32,969 nt of DNA from Clostridia bacterium (GTDB taxonomy: Bacteria; Bacillota; Clostridia; JAQVDB01), in assembly GCA_028698525.1 (NCBI GenBank), contig JAQVDB010000023.1, forward strand, positions 1-32,969, given 5' to 3'. Under the pieces are notes generated by a model. The model was given only the letters and a program-made list of their open reading frames with translations. It was not told where the DNA came from and ran no database searches. This document shows, in pieces, positions 16,558 through 25,675 of this stretch. How positions within the stretch are numbered: the first letter of the stretch is position 1; every line of letters begins with the position of its first letter. Both the position numbers and the translations under genes were made by a program.

Positions 16558-17514
16558 ATGGAAGATATAAATAAAGGTTGTTATATAAAGATCGATGAAT
16601 GGGTAGAGACGTTGAAACTAGAGCCAGTATATGTAGGTAAGAATGATTCTATAAAAGTTATTACAAGTGATGTAAACAGGCCAGGGCTCCAGTTTTCCGG
16701 GTTTTTTGATTATTTTCCTTTTAATAGGGTGCAGGTATTAGGAAAGGTTGAGATGACTTATCTTTCAAGAATGAGCAGCGATAAAATCCTTGAAAGAGCA
16801 AGAGAAGTATATAAGTATGATATACCTTGTACAATTGTTACTAGGGGAATGGATATCCCCCCTGAAATATTGGAAGCTTGTAAGCAATACAATAGACCAG
16901 TATTTAAATCTAGCAAGGTGACTACCCAGATAATGGGCAAACTTGTTAATTTCCTAGATAATAAGTTAGCTCCACAGATCACCAGGCATGGAGTATTAGT
17001 GGATGTATATGGGGTAGGAGTGTTGCTCATGGGCGAGAGCGGGATAGGTAAGAGCGAAACCGCCTTGGAGCTTGTCAAAAGGGGGCACAGATTGGTAGCA
17101 GATGATGCTGTAGAAATAAGAAAGGTATCAGAAGATAGACTGGTAGGCAAATCCCCTGAGTTGACCAAGCATTTTATGGAGATCAGGGGGGTTGGAATAA
17201 TAGATATAAAAACCTTGTTCGGGGTAGGAGCGATTATCGATAGCAAGTCAATAGATTTAGTGATTGAACTGGAAAAGTGGGATGAGCATAAAGAATACGA
17301 TAGATTAGGTCTTTCTGATGAGAGCATTGAAATATTAGGCGTTAAAATAACCAGACTCAGCATACCGGTAAGGCCAGGGAGAAATTTAGCCATTATCGCT
17401 GAGATAACTGCCAGGAATCATAGACAGAAAGCCATGGGATATAACGCAGCTAGAGAGCTTAACAACAGATTGATTGAAAAAATAAGTAAGAGTAAAGAAG
17501 AATCAGATCATTAG
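16558..17514 (+). CDS. hprK: HPr(Ser) kinase/phosphorylase
   Basis: Bifunctional sensor enzyme that phosphorylates Ser46 of HPr or Crh with ATP and removes it by phosphorolysis; the master switch of Firmicute carbon catabolite control. The 318-aa protein has the N-terminal domain (about 1-130), the conserved RHGVLVDVYGVG before the Walker A Gly159-Glu-Ser-Gly-Ile-Gly-Lys165-Ser166, the HPrK signature IRGVGIIDIKTLFGVGAI, and the C-terminal segment RLSIPVRPGRNLAIIAE. Length matches Bacillus HPrK. Start ATG 16558 follows TGGGGGA. In the same gene train lies the HPr-like gene at 24050, a likely substrate, and glucokinase at 18284. The next gene begins 10 bp after its stop. Confidence 0.97.
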   Translation: MEDINKGCYIKIDEWVETLKLEPVYVGKNDSIKVITSDVNRPGLQFSGFFDYFPFNRVQVLGKVEMTYLSRMSSDKILERAREVYKYDIPCTIVTRGMDIPPEILEACKQYNRPVFKSSKVTTQIMGKLVNFLDNKLAPQITRHGVLVDVYGVGVLLMGESGIGKSETALELVKRGHRLVADDAVEIRKVSEDRLVGKSPELTKHFMEIRGVGIIDIKTLFGVGAIIDSKSIDLVIELEKWDEHKEYDRLGLSDESIEILGVKITRLSIPVRPGRNLAIIAEITARNHRQKAMGYNAARELNNRLIEKISKSKEESDH

Positions 17515-17524
17515 AGGTGATAAT

Positions 17525-18247
17525 TTGAATATATTAATTGACACTCATTGTCATACTATTGCAAGCGGACATGGATATAGCACTATTCAAGAGATAGCAT
17601 ATGAGGCTTCTAAAAAAGGTTTAAAGATGGTATGTATAACTGAACATGGACCTGCTTTACCGGGAGGACCTCACGAATTTTTCTTTGGAAACATCCGAGT
17701 AGTACCTGAAGAAATTTATGGTGTGAGAATTTTAAAGGGCGTAGAGGCAAACATAATAGATAGTAAAGGAAATCTGGATGTAGATGAAAAATATTTAAAA
17801 AATCTAGATATAGTTGTAGCAAGTATGCACAGTCCTGTATTAAAAAGCAGTGGCAGGGAAGAAGATACTGATGCTGTAGTAAATGCTATTAAAAATCCTT
17901 ATGTAGATATAATAGGACATCCGGGTAATCCCTATTACGATATAGATTATAAAAAGATGGTATTGACTGCGGCAAAGTATAATAAACTTATAGAGATAAA
18001 TAACAGTTCTTTTTTTACAAGAAAAGGCAGTGATGAAAATTGTAGAACAATTGCAAAACTGGCGATAGAGGCAGGGGCCAACTTTGCGATAGGTAGTGAC
18101 TCACATATTTCATTCGATGTAGGCAATTTTGAAGACAGTTTAAGCTTGTTAGAAGAAATAGGATGTACCGAAGAGCCGGTGATGAATATTTCAGTAGAAA
18201 AGTTTATTGGATATTTAAATAAAAGAGGACGAGACATAGAAATTTGA
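17525..18247 (+). CDS. PHP-domain phosphoesterase, YcdX-like (first of two)
   Basis: Metal-dependent phosphoesterase of the PHP superfamily, 240 aa, one domain, cytosolic. All metal-binding motifs are present: DTHCHT (residues 6-11), TEHGP, GVEANI, the VASMHSPV segment, IIGHPGNP and GSDSH near the end. The arrangement matches YcdX-type proteins with a trinuclear metal site. The YcdX substrate is not firmly known, so function stays at phosphatase or phosphodiesterase. Start is TTG 17525 behind AGAGGTGAT, which overlaps the hprK stop region. A second PHP protein of the same family is encoded 1.9 kb downstream, with the ROK kinase and murB between them. Confidence 0.88.
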   Translation: MNILIDTHCHTIASGHGYSTIQEIAYEASKKGLKMVCITEHGPALPGGPHEFFFGNIRVVPEEIYGVRILKGVEANIIDSKGNLDVDEKYLKNLDIVVASMHSPVLKSSGREEDTDAVVNAIKNPYVDIIGHPGNPYYDIDYKKMVLTAAKYNKLIEINNSSFFTRKGSDENCRTIAKLAIEAGANFAIGSDSHISFDVGNFEDSLSLLEEIGCTEEPVMNISVEKFIGYLNKRGRDIEI

Positions 18248-18283: not shown

Positions 18284-19219
18284 ATGAATATAGGAATAGA
18301 CCTCGGTGGAACACATATAGGGGCAGGACTTGTAGATAATGATGGAAAAATAGTTATCCAAGATGAACTGCCAACAGAGAGACAAAGGGATTCTGATGAA
18401 ATTATAAAAGATATGGCAGCATTGGTAAGATCATTGACAACAAAAGCAGGATATTCTATGGATGAGATAGAAACAGTAGGGATTGGGTGTCCCGGAGTGG
18501 TAGATTTAAAAGGTGACAAGGTGGTATTTGCCGATAATTTGAATTGGCACGATGTTCCGCTGAGAAAAGAGATGGAAAGTTATTTAAATTTGCCTGTATA
18601 CATTGACAACGATGCAAATGCTGCTGCGCTGGCTGAAAATATATGCGGAGCCGCTGCCGGGGCGGCTTGTTCAGTGATGTTGACTTTAGGTACGGGTGTA
18701 GGCTCGGGAATAATATTGGATGGCAATATATTTTGTGGTTTTCATGGCGTGGGCGCCGAATTAGGTCATACGATAATTGATGTGGATGGGCCATTGTGTG
18801 CATGCGGTAATAGAGGCTGTTTGGAGCAATATGCATCGGCAACCGGGTTGGTGAGAATAGCTAAAGAGATTTTACATAATACAGCGAACAGCAAAACACT
18901 CTTACATTCAGAAAGTATAACAGCGAAAGATGTGATAGATGCTGCAAAAAGTCATGATCAGGTGGCATTAGAAATATTTAATTTGTATATTAAATATCTT
19001 TGTATAGGCATAATAAATATTATAAACAGTTTTGATCCTGAAGTGGTGGTTATAGGGGGAGGAATATCCAAGGCAGGTAATTTTTTGTTGGATGCGTTAA
19101 AATGGGAAGTGAGAAAAAATTTATTTTGTAAAGGAGTTTCTCATGCAAGTATACGATTGGGAAAGCTAGGAAATGATGCAGGGATAATAGGTGCTGCAAT
19201 GTTATCCGGACACAACTAA
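18284..19219 (+). CDS. ROK-family sugar kinase, probably glucokinase
   Basis: Cytosolic kinase, 311 aa, likely phosphorylating glucose with ATP. The ROK features are all there: phosphate-binding GIDLGGTHIGAGLV at the N-terminus, GIGCPGVVD, PVYIDNDANAAALAE with the catalytic Asp, LGTGVGSGIILDG, the zinc motif Cys172-Ala-Cys174-Gly-x-x-Gly-Cys179-Leu-Glu, and VVIGGGIS. With no DNA-binding domain at the N-terminus it is an enzyme and not a ROK repressor. Glucokinase fits its place in a carbon-control operon, but N-acetyl sugar or allose kinases share these motifs. Start ATG 18284 follows GGGGGATATG. It should act on sugar that enters without phosphorylation by a PTS. Confidence 0.9.
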   Translation: MNIGIDLGGTHIGAGLVDNDGKIVIQDELPTERQRDSDEIIKDMAALVRSLTTKAGYSMDEIETVGIGCPGVVDLKGDKVVFADNLNWHDVPLRKEMESYLNLPVYIDNDANAAALAENICGAAAGAACSVMLTLGTGVGSGIILDGNIFCGFHGVGAELGHTIIDVDGPLCACGNRGCLEQYASATGLVRIAKEILHNTANSKTLLHSESITAKDVIDAAKSHDQVALEIFNLYIKYLCIGIINIINSFDPEVVVIGGGISKAGNFLLDALKWEVRKNLFCKGVSHASIRLGKLGNDAGIIGAAMLSGHN

Positions 19220-20153: not shown

Positions 20154-20169
20154 CAGGGAGATGACATAT

Positions 20170-20910
20170 TTGCTGAAAATATTCGCAGACTATCATACAC
20201 ATACCCGATACAGTCATGGTAAAGGTACAATACGTGACAATGTGTTAGTAGCTAGAAAAAAAGGATTAAACAGAATAGCAATTTCAGATCACGGTCCTGG
20301 ACATATAGGATATGGGGTATCTAATAAAAATATTTTGAAAATGAAATCTGAAATATATAAAATAAATCAAGAATTTGATGACATAGAGGTTTTGCTTGCT
20401 GTAGAGGCGAACATCATCAATACAGAAGGAGACATAGATATCTCTCAAGATTTAATTAGTGAACTGGATATGGTATTGTTGGGGTATCATAAGATGGTTC
20501 GTACAAGTTCAATAAAAGATTGGTATCAAATATTTTTAAAGAATTTATTATTTAAGAGAGCAAAAAGCCAGATACAAGATTTAATCGATGACAATACACG
20601 AATGTTTATAAAGGCTATAAACAAATATAAAATTGATATAATTACCCATCCCGGCTGCGGAATCCTGATAGATACTGCTAAATTAGCGAGGGAATGTGCT
20701 AATTTAGGTACTGCACTTGAGATCAATAGCCATCATGGATTGCTCAATCAGGAATATGTAAGGATTGCTATGCAGCAGGATGTTAAATTTGCAATAAGCA
20801 GTGATGCACACAAACCTGAAGATGTAGGAAATTTCGATAAGGGGATAGATATAGCTGTTAAAGCAGGGCTCACCGCAGATAGAATAATCAATGCAAAACC
20901 GTATATGTAA
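20170..20910 (+). CDS. PHP-domain phosphoesterase (second of two)
   Basis: A second single-domain PHP protein, about 246 aa, with metal motifs DYHTHTRYSHGKGT, ISDHGPGHIG, AVEANIINTEGDIDIS, ITHPGCG and SSDAHKPEDVG. It is clearly related to the protein encoded at 17525 but diverged, for example by an insert around LKNLLFKRAKSQIQDLIDDN. All metal ligands look intact, so it should be an active phosphoesterase with unknown substrate. ATG 20161 touches the AGGGAG ribosome binding site directly, so TTG 20170, 9 nt away, is the better start. It comes 16 bp after murB and 23 bp before rapZ, inside the operon. PHP genes next to rapZ-yvcK-whiA are known in clostridia. Confidence 0.87.
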   Translation: MLKIFADYHTHTRYSHGKGTIRDNVLVARKKGLNRIAISDHGPGHIGYGVSNKNILKMKSEIYKINQEFDDIEVLLAVEANIINTEGDIDISQDLISELDMVLLGYHKMVRTSSIKDWYQIFLKNLLFKRAKSQIQDLIDDNTRMFIKAINKYKIDIITHPGCGILIDTAKLARECANLGTALEINSHHGLLNQEYVRIAMQQDVKFAISSDAHKPEDVGNFDKGIDIAVKAGLTADRIINAKPYM

Positions 20911-20933: not shown

Positions 20934-21791
20934 ATGCGTTTTATTATAGTTACGGGAATGTCAGGAGCAGGCAAAAGCCAGGCGATAAAATTCATGGAGG
21001 ACTTGGGGTTCTTTTGTGTAGACAATCTCCCCCCTGCACTTTTACCTAAATTTGCAGAGCTTTGTCTGCATTCCGATGATGCTGTTGAGAAAGTAGCAGT
21101 GGTTGTAGACATAAGAGGGAGGGCGTTTTTTGACGATCTTTTTGAGAGTTTAGCGCTGCTTAAAGAAAACGGCTATGATTATGAAATACTTTTCTTGGAT
21201 GCCTCTGATGAGGTTTTGATAAAAAGATTTAAAGAAACCAGAAGAAAACCCCCCCTATTTATCGATGGGAGAATAATTAACAGCATAAGAGAAGAGAGAA
21301 GCAAATTACAAAAGCTTAAAGAAAAAGCTAATAATATAATAGATACTTCTAATCTCATTCCTAGGCAGCTTAGGGAAGAAATAGTGAGTATCTTTATAGA
21401 TGAAGAGAATTTTCAGGCATTGACTATCTCTGTTATGTCATTTGGTTTCAAATATGGCATACCTTTAGATGCCGATTTAGTATTCGATGTCAGATTCCTT
21501 CCCAATCCATTCTATATAAAGGAACTAAAACAATACACCGGTCGGGAATCCAAAGTGCGTGAATATGTGATGAAATGGCCGTTGACAAAAAAATTTCTTG
21601 AAAAACTTCAGGATCTTTTAGATTTTTTAATTCCCCAATATATAAAAGAAGGCAAAAATCAATTAGTCATCTGTATAGGATGTACAGGAGGAAAGCATAG
21701 ATCTGTAATTATTGCTGATGAGTTATACGATGCATTAAAAAAGAACAAGTACAGTGTTACGATAAATCACAGAGATATACCCGAGGAATAA
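20934..21791 (+). CDS. rapZ: RNase adapter/nucleotide-binding protein RapZ (YvcJ)
   Basis: A 285-aa P-loop protein. In E. coli RapZ guides RNase E to the GlmZ small RNA and so sets glucosamine-6-phosphate synthase levels; in Bacillus the equivalent YvcJ is a nucleotide hydrolase with a less clear role. Visible are Walker A GMSGAGKS (8-15), VDNLPP, the [20 protein letters not shown] segment, and the C-terminal domain with [24 protein letters not shown] and [11 protein letters not shown]. It is complete. Start ATG 20934 follows GAAGGTG. Its neighbours yvcK, whiA and an HPr-like gene form the widely conserved Firmicute block. The E. coli RNA function should not be assumed here. Confidence 0.95.
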
Positions 21792-21806
21792 AGAGAAGGG
21801 ATGAAT

Positions 21807-23072
21807 ATGAAATTTATTCAGCTGTTAAAAAGCAGTGTTGGAATTAAAAGATGGATATTTACAGTTATTTTAGGTATATTTGCTGTAGCCGCTGGGATAG
21901 TCATAATATATGAGAAAATATTTTATACAACAGCGATAAATTATGTGGTCTCAATATTAGTTATTGCTGCCGGTTTTATATTTATATATATAGCGGTTGT
22001 AAATATAATAAAGTCTGTATTGAATTTAGCTGAGACCAAAAATTTTAACAACGGCATGGATTATAAAAAGATAAAAAGGATAATATACAAAAAAGCAGTA
22101 TTGAATTCAGGGCCTAATATTGTGGTGATAGGCGGGGGTACTGGATTATCGGTGCTGCTCAGAGGCTTAAAACAATACAGCTCCAACCTAACTGCAGTGG
22201 TAACAGTTTCTGATGATGGGGGAAGTTCCGGAATGTTGAGAGACGATATGGGTATTTTGCCTCCTGGGGATATCAGAAATTGTGTGTTGGCTCTAGCGGA
22301 TGTTGAACCGTTGATGGAGAAGCTGATTCAATACAGGTTTAAAGAAGGAAATTTGAAAGGGCAGAATTTTGGTAATTTATTTATTGCAGCGCTGACAGAT
22401 ATTACAGATAATTTTGAGCAAGCTATAAAGGAGATCAGCAGTGTGCTCGCAGTGGGAGGTAAAGTGCTTCCTGTGTCTTTACAGGACATCAGATTAAACG
22501 CTGAATTGGAAGACGGGTTTATTGTAAAAGGAGAATCTAGCATTCCTTTACAATCTTCATTGAGGCAATCACCGATAAAAAGAGTATTTGTTACTCCTGA
22601 TAATTGTATGCCTATACTCGATGTGTTGGATGCGATAGAAAAAGCGGACTGTATTGTATTAGGACCTGGAAGTCTGTTTACCAGCATAGTTCCTAATTTT
22701 TTAGTTAACAAAGTTTCAGATAGCATATCCAAGGCAAAGGCAATAAAAATATATGTGTGCAATATTATGACACAGCCAGGAGAAACTGATAATTTTAGTG
22801 TATCTGATCATGTAAAGGTTATTCATGAATATGCCGGCAGGAGGTCTATACAGTACGTTGTTGCTAATAATGCAGACATACCTGAACACATATTGGATAA
22901 ATACAAAGAAGATGGGTCAATACCGGTTCAACATGATGTTGAACAGCTTAAAAGATTAGGAGTAGAGCTAGTTGAACAGGATTTTCTTGATATTTCAGAC
23001 GGATTGATAAGACATAATTCAAACAAATTAGCTAAGACTATAATAAAACTCGTATACGATAAAAAGCTCTGA
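21807..23072 (+). CDS. yvcK: YvcK/CofD-like gluconeogenesis factor with N-terminal membrane domain
   Basis: YvcK is needed in Bacillus for growth on gluconeogenic carbon and for cell shape, and binds UDP-sugars. The CofD-like domain (from about residue 103) shows GGGTG at 109-113 followed by LSVLLRGLK, then VTVSDDGGSSGMLRDDMG, LPPGDIRNC, GPGSLFTSIVPN and MTQPGETDNFSVSDH. The first 100 residues are unlike Bacillus YvcK (about 317 aa) and hold two hydrophobic helices (about 14-36 and 45-68), making a membrane-anchored 421-aa form. ATG 21807 is 6 nt from GAGAAGGG; ATG 21801 directly touches it. It follows rapZ by 15 bp. Anchoring would place this wall-precursor regulator at the membrane next to the synthesis machinery, which is an inference. 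Confidence 0.94.
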   Translation: MKFIQLLKSSVGIKRWIFTVILGIFAVAAGIVIIYEKIFYTTAINYVVSILVIAAGFIFIYIAVVNIIKSVLNLAETKNFNNGMDYKKIKRIIYKKAVLNSGPNIVVIGGGTGLSVLLRGLKQYSSNLTAVVTVSDDGGSSGMLRDDMGILPPGDIRNCVLALADVEPLMEKLIQYRFKEGNLKGQNFGNLFIAALTDITDNFEQAIKEISSVLAVGGKVLPVSLQDIRLNAELEDGFIVKGESSIPLQSSLRQSPIKRVFVTPDNCMPILDVLDAIEKADCIVLGPGSLFTSIVPNFLVNKVSDSISKAKAIKIYVCNIMTQPGETDNFSVSDHVKVIHEYAGRRSIQYVVANNADIPEHILDKYKEDGSIPVQHDVEQLKRLGVELVEQDFLDISDGLIRHNSNKLAKTIIKLVYDKKL

Positions 23073-23085
23073 AGAGGTGAATGAC

Positions 23086-24057
23086 TTGTCATTTTCTACT
23101 AAGGTTAAGAATGAGCTAGCAAGAATTGAGGGCGATAATGCAGCAGATAAAAAAGCAGAACTTGCAGCTTTTGTTCAAATGGCCGGTACTATACAGATAA
23201 AAGGCAATAAAAGGATGAATTTGCTGGTATCTACTGAAAATGCTGCCATTGCACGTAGAATATATTCATCTATCAAAAAGCTATACAGGGTACAAAGCGA
23301 TGTTATTGTCAGAAAAGGGAAAAAGCTTAAAAAATGCAATAGATATATAATAGCTATTACATATCCAGGAATGGCCAGGAAAGTGCTTGTTGATTTGGGT
23401 ATACTAGAAAAAAGTAAAAGTGGTACTATGCAGCTGAGCAATAGCATAAAAGAGGATATGATAAAGAGCGAATCGGCTAAAAGAGCTTATTTAAGAGGCG
23501 CTTTTATAGGTGGTGGTTCTGTAAGCAATCCTGAAAAGACGTATCACATGGAATTTGTATGTCATAACAGGGAATTTTCCCAATGTCTTTCGCAGCTGAT
23601 AAATTCATATAATCTATCATCTAAAATAATTGATAGAAAGGGTAACTATGTAGTATACTTAAAGGAAGGAGAACAAGTTGCAGAGGTGTTGAAAATAATT
23701 GGTGCTTTTTCATCTCTTTTAAAGTTTGAGGATATTAGGGTATATAAAGACATCAGAAATAATATCAATCGTCTGGTTAATTGTGAGACGGCTAATATCA
23801 GCAAAACCATCGATGCTGCAGTTAGACAGATAGACAACATAATGTACATTAAAGAAAGCATAGGATTTAATAAACTTCCTGATAATCTAAGAGAGATTGC
23901 TCGTTTGAGACTGGAAAATACCCATGCTAGTTTAAAAGAATTAGGGCAGATGTTATCACCTCCTATCGGAAAATCTGGTGTCAACCACAGATTGAGGAGA
24001 TTAGAGAAGATTGCACAGGATTTAAAAATGAGAAGGGGGAGTTTTAAGCATGATTGA
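23086..24057 (+). CDS. whiA: DNA-binding protein WhiA
   Basis: WhiA is a conserved Gram-positive DNA-binding protein; in Streptomyces it activates sporulation septation genes, in Bacillus it affects division and chromosome segregation. The 323-aa protein starts MSFSTKVKNELARI, exactly like homologues. It has the LAGLIDADG-like domain (about 10-210, AYLRGAFIGGGSVSNPE) without the nuclease acid pattern, and a C-terminal helix-turn-helix with LPDNLREIARLRLENTHASLKELG and GKSGVNHRLRRLEKIA. Start is TTG 23086, 5 nt after GAAGAGGTGA; GTG 23077 lies inside that ribosome binding site. It ends in an 8-nt overlap with the HPr-like gene, so their translation is coupled. Confidence 0.96.
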   Translation: MSFSTKVKNELARIEGDNAADKKAELAAFVQMAGTIQIKGNKRMNLLVSTENAAIARRIYSSIKKLYRVQSDVIVRKGKKLKKCNRYIIAITYPGMARKVLVDLGILEKSKSGTMQLSNSIKEDMIKSESAKRAYLRGAFIGGGSVSNPEKTYHMEFVCHNREFSQCLSQLINSYNLSSKIIDRKGNYVVYLKEGEQVAEVLKIIGAFSSLLKFEDIRVYKDIRNNINRLVNCETANISKTIDAAVRQIDNIMYIKESIGFNKLPDNLREIARLRLENTHASLKELGQMLSPPIGKSGVNHRLRRLEKIAQDLKMRRGSFKHD

Positions 24058-24313
24058 AAAAAAAGTGGTAGTTAAAAATAAAGATGGCTTATATGCGAGA
24101 TTGGCTGCAGTATTGGTACAAGTAGCTAGCAAGTATTCTTCGAAAGTTTGGATAAAAAAAGATGACAAGCAGGTTAATGCTAAAAGCATCATGGGTATTA
24201 TGTCACTTGGAATATCACAGGGAGAAACTGTTGTGATAGGTGCAGAAGGGAAAGATGAACAAAAGGCAGTAGAAGAATTGTATGATATAATGAATTCTGA
24301 GTTTAAAGAATAA
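24050..24313 (+). CDS. Crh-type HPr-like protein with Tyr15 in place of the catalytic His
   Basis: An 87-aa HPr-fold protein. In HPr, His15 takes phosphate from enzyme I; here the motif reads KDGLYARLAA with Tyr15 and Leu18 in place of His and Pro. The regulatory site AKSIMGIMSLG with Ser46 is intact. This is the same logic as Bacillus Crh, where Gln replaces His15: no role in sugar transport, but a target of HPrK that can act with CcpA. Position after whiA also equals that of crh in Bacillus. hprK is in the same gene train. Start ATG 24050 overlaps the whiA end by 8 nt and follows AAGGGGG. A terminator follows. Crh function is inferred; no CcpA gene is in the window. The symbol crh is avoided because the residue at 15 differs. 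Confidence 0.9.
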   Translation: MIEKKVVVKNKDGLYARLAAVLVQVASKYSSKVWIKKDDKQVNAKSIMGIMSLGISQGETVVIGAEGKDEQKAVEELYDIMNSEFKE

Positions 24314-24319
24314 ATAGGG

Positions 24320-24339
24320 CCTCCTTTTAAGGAGGTTTT
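24320..24339 (+). terminator. Terminator at the end of the ftsW-to-HPr-like operon
   Basis: CCTCCTT (24320-24326) pairs with AAGGAGG (24329-24335), followed by TTTTG. The loop is very tight and the T run short, so termination may be partial and allow read-through to the next gene 35 bp on. Confidence 0.6.
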
Positions 24340-24373
24340 GTATTATTTCCATATAGCGAGCAGGTGAGTATCT

Positions 24374-25675
24374 ATGACTACAAAACATAATAAAATTTTA
24401 GAATATATTGAAAGTCTCAAAGCAGGTACTCGTATTTCAGTGAGAAAAGTAGCAGCAAAATTAAACGTGAGTGAGGGAACTGCATACAGAGCGATAAAAG
24501 AGGCAGAAAACAGGAAATTAGTGAGCACTATACAAAGAGTTGGGACTGTAAGAATTGAAAAGATCGAGAAAAAGAATATCGAGAAGCTGAGCTTTGGGGA
24601 GATAACAAATATTGTTGATGGTACCGTTTTAGGCGGATTTGAAGGTTTAGGTAAAACCTTGAATAAATTCTTAATAGGTGCTATGACGGTAGATGAAGCA
24701 GAAAAATATATAAATCGGGGAGATCTATTGATTGTAGGTAATAGAGAAGAGTGTTATCGTTTAGCCCTAGAAAAAGATGCGTCAGTGCTAATAACAGGAG
24801 GATTTGGTTGTAGTGATGAAATAAAAGAGATTGCAAACAAAAAGAAGCTTCCTATAATCACCTCTAGTTATGATACATTTACCATCGCAACCCTTATCAA
24901 TAAAGCTATATATGAAAGACTTGCAAAGAAAGATATACTTTTAGTAGAAGATATAATGGCAAAAGACCCCTTTTACCTAAAAGAAACGGATAAGGTAGAA
25001 CAATGGAAAAACCTCTTTTATAGCACTACCCATACTAGATTTCCGGTAGTAGATAAAAAAAACAATGTAGTTGGTATAATTACCGCAAAAGACGTGACGG
25101 AAGCCCAAAATGATGAAATGATAAAAAACAGGATGACACGAGATTTGATAACTTTGGATCAGAAGACTACCGTTGCATATGCTTCATATATAATGATATG
25201 GGAAGGAATTGAACTTATTCCTATAGTTGAGGACGGAAAGCTCATTGGGGTGATAAGCCGAAGAGATGTCATGAAGGCTATGCAATACATGAGAAGCCAG
25301 CCCCAAGTGGGAGAGACTATGGAAGATTTGTTGTTGAGCAATTTTTCTATAACTTCTAATTCTAAGGTTGTAAAGTTTACCGGTGAAGTGGAGCCGGCAA
25401 TGTTAAACCGGCTGGGAGTTGCCAGTTGGAGTGCTATTATAATGCTCATGTCTACTGCTGCTGTTGTGGCTACAAAAAGACAGAGAAAATTAGAGCCTAT
25501 GCCGGATAGCTTCATAGTATATTTTATAAAACCTGTACAGATAGAGGACAAAATTTCATTGATAGTGAATACTATCGATTCTGGAAGACATTATTGCAAG
25601 ATTGAAGTAGAGGTCAGGGATCGCTATAAGACCCTAGCAAGGGGAATGATGTCAGCTAAAATATTCAGGAGGTAG
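24374..25675 (+). CDS. YtoI-like regulator: HTH, DRTGG, two CBS domains and a hotdog domain
   Basis: A 433-aa multidomain protein like Bacillus YtoI. In order: a GntR-like winged helix (about 1-65, ISVRKVAAKLNVSEGTAYRAIKEAE), a DRTGG domain (about 75-185), a CBS pair (about 190-310, with IMAKDPFYLKETDKVEQW and TRFPVVDKKNNVVGIITAKDV), and a hotdog-fold thioesterase-like domain (about 320-433, MLNRLGVASWSAIIMLMSTAA). CBS pairs bind adenine nucleotides, and DRTGG domains occur with them, so it is plausibly a nucleotide-sensing transcription factor. Its ligand and target genes are not known to me. Start ATG 24374 follows GAGCAGGTGAG. Its stop lies beside the dnaE ribosome binding site, so the two are co-transcribed. 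Confidence 0.88.
   Translation: MTTKHNKILEYIESLKAGTRISVRKVAAKLNVSEGTAYRAIKEAENRKLVSTIQRVGTVRIEKIEKKNIEKLSFGEITNIVDGTVLGGFEGLGKTLNKFLIGAMTVDEAEKYINRGDLLIVGNREECYRLALEKDASVLITGGFGCSDEIKEIANKKKLPIITSSYDTFTIATLINKAIYERLAKKDILLVEDIMAKDPFYLKETDKVEQWKNLFYSTTHTRFPVVDKKNNVVGIITAKDVTEAQNDEMIKNRMTRDLITLDQKTTVAYASYIMIWEGIELIPIVEDGKLIGVISRRDVMKAMQYMRSQPQVGETMEDLLLSNFSITSNSKVVKFTGEVEPAMLNRLGVASWSAIIMLMSTAAVVATKRQRKLEPMPDSFIVYFIKPVQIEDKISLIVNTIDSGRHYCKIEVEVRDRYKTLARGMMSAKIFRR

Follow-up and report, generated by a model that had tools for sequence, protein, structure and literature searches.

When an HPr-family protein is encoded at the position of crh but carries Tyr in place of the phospho-accepting His15, does it still take part in phosphate transfer, or does it serve signalling only? 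The question is raised by a gene in the 32,969-nucleotide stretch of clostridial DNA analysed here (the window), the key positions of which are as follows:

24,050 to 24,313, plus strand: intact open reading frame for an HPr-like (Crh-position) protein of 87 aa with Tyr15, Arg17, Leu18 and Ser46
24,092 to 24,094, plus strand: codon 15, TAT (Tyr), replacing the phospho-accepting His
24,101 to 24,103, plus strand: codon 18, TTG (Leu), where the usual residue is Pro
24,185 to 24,187, plus strand: codon 46, AGC (Ser), with the helix context NAKSIMGIMSLG intact

Reading of the codons confirmed every residue named in an earlier note on this DNA, i.e. Tyr15, Leu18 and a conserved Ser46 with its surroundings; residues 16 and 17 are Ala and Arg (HPr numbering). 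The protein belongs to the HPr family by both models used, scoring 103.7 bits against TIGR01003 (cut-off 47.9) and 107.9 bits against PF00381 (cut-off 23). With Tyr15 and Leu18 it lacks the His15 that a PTS phosphocarrier HPr requires and, like Crh, it is an HPr homologue without His15 that has kept Ser46, the target site of HprK in known HPr and Crh proteins. Its best homologues are 57–59% identical, its nearest solved structures are 3le1 and 3le5 (101.5 bits), and it is closer to Bacillus Crh (75.6 bits) than to Bacillus HPr (about 60–67 bits). Against NF010354, which we take to be the NCBIfam Crh model, it scores 103.5 bits, below the cut-off of 123 bits; since this score measures likeness to the Bacillus group and not mechanism, we refer to the protein as Crh-like, and not as Crh in the strict equivalog sense. 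PHROGs gave no match.

The gene is probably the last of a co-directional run that also holds hprK:

16,558 to 17,514, plus strand: hprK, HPr(Ser) kinase/phosphorylase with an intact P-loop, GESGIGKSE (TIGR00679, 391.6 bits, cut-off 240)
18,284 to 19,219, plus strand: ROK-family, sugar kinase-like protein (PF00480, 257.9 bits)
20,934 to 21,791, plus strand: yvcJ/rapZ (PF03668, PF22740)
21,801 to 23,072, plus strand: yvcK/glmR, CofD-like (PF01933)
23,077 to 24,057, plus strand: whiA (PF02650, PF14527, PF10298)
24,314 to 24,341, plus strand: strong terminator-like hairpin 3' of the HPr-like gene (fold z = −3.6 over 24,300 to 24,350)

Both genomic features expected of a Crh are thus present, namely an hprK gene, the product of which matches the solved HprK 1ko7 over nearly the whole length (residues 16–311), and the gene order yvcJ-yvcK-whiA-crh. 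In B. subtilis, whiA shares an operon with the upstream glmR/yvcK and the downstream crh (PMC10714963). The run bounded by hprK and the HPr-like gene comprises nine genes, both ends included, all on the plus strand and separated by gaps of −29 to +36 nt, with an overlap of 8 nt between whiA and the HPr-like gene; the ROK-family gene, murB and two PHP-domain genes (17,525 to 18,247 and 20,161 to 20,910 of the window) stand between hprK and the rapZ/yvcJ-yvcK-whiA-HPr block. The HPr-like gene had been placed in one gene train with hprK and with a ROK protein: the ROK gene is indeed there, and the train holds as a co-directional run, which is probably transcribed as a single unit from hprK onwards. 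The terminator-like hairpin after the HPr-like gene makes this gene probably the last of the run; a simple terminator scan returned about as many terminator-like sites as it did in shuffles, and the fold of the hairpin is therefore the better evidence for a terminator. Adjoining the HPr-like gene, at 24,374 to 25,675 of the window, is a gene for a single protein with an HTH (GntR-like), a DRTGG and two CBS domains, and a gene of this type also adjoins whiA-HPr in L014 and L033–L035.

The source genome, a 2.18-Mb draft in 136 contigs that is 97% complete, is the sole member of its own family and order among the genomes searched. It has two PF00381 matches only, the HPr-like gene and a second one on contig C7 (658 to 831, minus strand). 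The product of the latter is a second HPr-family protein without the active-site His15 loop that keeps DAKSILGIFSLDL around the Ser46 position, and is possibly a second substrate of HprK. A genome search for a His15 HPr and for enzyme I, proposed in the earlier note, returned neither: in the 97% complete draft no PF00381 match carries His15, and there is no match to the N-terminal (PF05524) or the C-terminal (PF02896) enzyme I domain. PTS_EIIC (PF02378) gave no match in this genome either. The searches with PF05524, PF02896 and PF02378 do give matches in control genomes; with 136 contigs, the absences in the source genome are not absolute. With neither enzyme I nor PTS_EIIC found, there is no PTS in sight for the HPr-like protein to serve, let alone a complete one working through it.

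To follow residue 15 at this locus elsewhere, HPr-like genes were gathered from named GTDB genomes as well as from 391 genomes of the class; for those with a whiA gene just before them, residue 15 was set against the presence of enzyme I in the same genome. The homologues were chosen for their likeness to the window protein, which makes the sample a biased one. All 14 whiA-adjacent homologues in Clostridia without His15 come from genomes without enzyme I, and among them position 15 is taken by eight different residues: Q (5), N (2), K (2), R, D, S, T and Y (e.g. N in L007, R in L009, D in L010, Q in L149, K in L161, T in L148 and S in L144). Position 15 ranks seventh in variability among the 83 columns of this non-His set. 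Lys45, Ser46, Ile47, Ser52 and Leu53, on the other hand, are invariant in all 24 sequences tabulated column by column, so that the alignment proposed earlier shows a site that varies where His is gone and a Ser46 region that does not. In genomes with enzyme I, His15 is found in 14 of 16 (7/7 in the class sample and 7/9 among the named tree genomes), these being the seven class genomes together with Thermoanaerobacter, Pseudobacteroides, Acetoanaerobium and Paenibacillus-type genomes; the two exceptions, Planococcus and Sporosarcina, are Bacilli and carry Gln15, the same residue as Bacillus Crh. His15 is still present at the whiA-adjacent locus of six genomes without enzyme I, and loss of enzyme I therefore does not force a change at residue 15.

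Across the 36 rows of the WhiA tree, genomes with enzyme I divide into 14 His and 2 non-His, and those without it into 6 and 14 (Fisher p = 0.0008, ignoring relatedness). Changes between His and non-His number at least six on this tree. Independent contrasts on well-supported branches number three and run mostly in the expected direction (median p of the sign test, 0.25); with only three of them, significance is out of reach. One instructive pair is Pseudobacteroides (L036), with His15 and enzyme I, which is sister to L007/G015, with Asn15 and without enzyme I; both sit on long branches. A link between the state of residue 15 and the presence of enzyme I, as judged from sequence comparison, is plausible and consistent, not proven. 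The pattern seen across clostridia at the crh locus is an expected consequence of losing enzyme I. Neither a description of this pattern nor any survey of the Clostridia for residue 15 at that locus turned up in the literature searched, which omits most subscription journals.

Does Tyr itself carry a meaning? The earlier note had regarded it as another 'solution' for this site, a view that the survey does not bear out, given that relatives without enzyme I carry D, K, N, Q, R, S or T. It had also raised the prospect of Tyr15 as a phosphorylation site for a tyrosine kinase, which would be a new input. With a kinase of the BY type, the HPrK/HPr switch would take an input besides glycolytic state. 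There are two BY-kinase-family proteins above the cut-off (TIGR01007) in the source genome, and a second Tyr15 HPr does occur in a separate clostridial lineage (L207 of G117, with GLYARP). However, the latter belongs to a different HPr subfamily (NAKSLLG), is not next to whiA and comes from a genome with enzyme I; BY-type kinases are usually tied to exopolysaccharide synthesis, nothing links the two found here to the HPr-like protein, and Tyr is not conserved at the same locus in relatives. We consider a tyrosine-kinase input very unlikely and set it aside for this lack of Tyr conservation at residue 15. The His codon CAT and the Tyr codon TAT are one base apart, and since the residues at position 15 of relatives are chemically diverse and Tyr15 occurs in an enzyme I-containing lineage as well, Tyr appears to be one of many results of relaxed constraint, most likely a neutral or near-neutral change that followed the loss of enzyme I, and not a new input.

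An error in sequencing or assembly could also have turned His into Tyr15 by that same single base. This is exceedingly unlikely, since Leu18 is a second active-site change, its codon TTG being convertible into a Pro codon by no fewer than two base changes, and since enzyme I is missing independently. A gene in decay that has lost its function would fit the loss of the active-site His and Pro, but this is very improbable in view of the intact open reading frame with 57–59% identity to its best homologues, the Ser46 region that is invariant across the group, the 8-nt overlap that couples the gene tightly to whiA, and the retention of hprK. Finally, the protein might be a PTS component in disguise that takes part in a phosphate relay via another residue or an enzyme I that escaped detection. 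The 97% completeness of the draft leaves some room for the latter; with PTS_EIIC absent along with both of the enzyme I domains searched for, and with the active-site His15 and Pro18 both gone, we regard such a relay as extremely improbable.

With no His15 HPr, enzyme I or PTS_EIIC found, and with the His loop lacking in the other HPr-family protein, the best reading is a signalling-only HPr that depends on HPrK, as had been suggested earlier; the intact HprK, the invariant flanks of Ser46 and the crh position agree with it. Judging from the sequence data, we hold it highly probable that the protein is a Crh-position HPr in a clostridium with no detectable PTS, that it acts only via HprK and Ser46, and that its Tyr15 is neutral or near-neutral. 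The protein cannot carry phosphate on a position-15 His, and no enzyme I was found to load it. Most likely, the HprK from the same run of genes would phosphorylate and dephosphorylate Ser46 as glycolytic state changes, and the phosphorylated form would in turn be expected to alter the binding of a partner, which might be a CcpA-like LacI regulator or a metabolic target, as with Bacillus Crh. The residues, the locus, the intact HprK and the failure to find enzyme I, EIIC or a His15 HPr are read directly, by contrast with the action of HprK on this protein, the signalling metabolite and the target, which are predicted.

As for the output, a search for ccpA was also proposed in the earlier note. 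None of the seven LacI-family regulators found in the source genome reaches the CcpA equivalog cut-off of 442 bits, which is possibly too stringent for clostridial CcpA (best score 236, L116 on contig C55); for another of them, L119 on contig C111, CcpA is the best family over most of its length, and this protein runs into a contig end right at the start of the HPr-contacting helix of the Bacillus complex. A CcpA-like partner is therefore possible, though unproven. Among the proteins under the control of Bacillus Crh is the methylglyoxal synthase MgsA (PMC9631020).

Signalling-only HPr proteins of the Crh type are already known from Bacillus, and a Crh-like protein has been described from the PTS-poor clostridium C. 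cellulolyticum (PMC3656788); the Tyr15 variant adds a member to this kind. The protein described here shares with Bacillus Crh the fold family, the lack of His15, the retention of Ser46 and the location after yvcJ-yvcK-whiA. It differs in having Tyr15 instead of Gln15 and Leu in place of Pro18, and whereas in Bacillus Crh exists alongside a His15 HPr and a complete PTS, neither was found in the source genome. C. cellulolyticum is reported to encode the Crh-like Ccel_0806 and CcpA homologues and to lack both an HPr ortholog and a cognate PTS EII, and Ccel_0806 has been proposed to act in catabolite repression together with the CcpA homologues (PMC3656788). By its published description, and in a different organism, Ccel_0806 is a comparable case of a Crh-like protein in a clostridium reported to be PTS-poor (PMC3656788). 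The Thermoanaerobacter-type HPr (3le1, 3le5; L033–L035) is the nearest solved structure and is also whiA-adjacent, but has His15 and Pro18 and comes from genomes with enzyme I. The whiA-adjacent HPr-like proteins of other Clostridia without enzyme I share the locus and the invariant Ser46 region and differ in residue 15.

The HprK/Ser46 branch is thus kept at a crh locus where enzyme I, EIIC and a His15 HPr were not found. At this locus across Clostridia, residue 15 drifts where enzyme I is missing and the Ser46 region is frozen, so that the two functions of HPr have in effect been separated by nature. This is also a warning for annotation, as many clostridial entries named 'phosphocarrier protein HPr' cannot be phosphocarriers. 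L011, L015–L019, L021, L023–L027 and loci like them belong to another HPr subfamily (NAKSLLGVLSLG) with His15 and Pro18, which occurs in many clostridial genomes without a PF05524 match. A further HPr-like subfamily (L028 and L120–L132, group f7) has Glu15-Ser16-Lys17 (ESKM/ESKV) and a conserved Ser46, and this triplet is constant across one family, with or without enzyme I.
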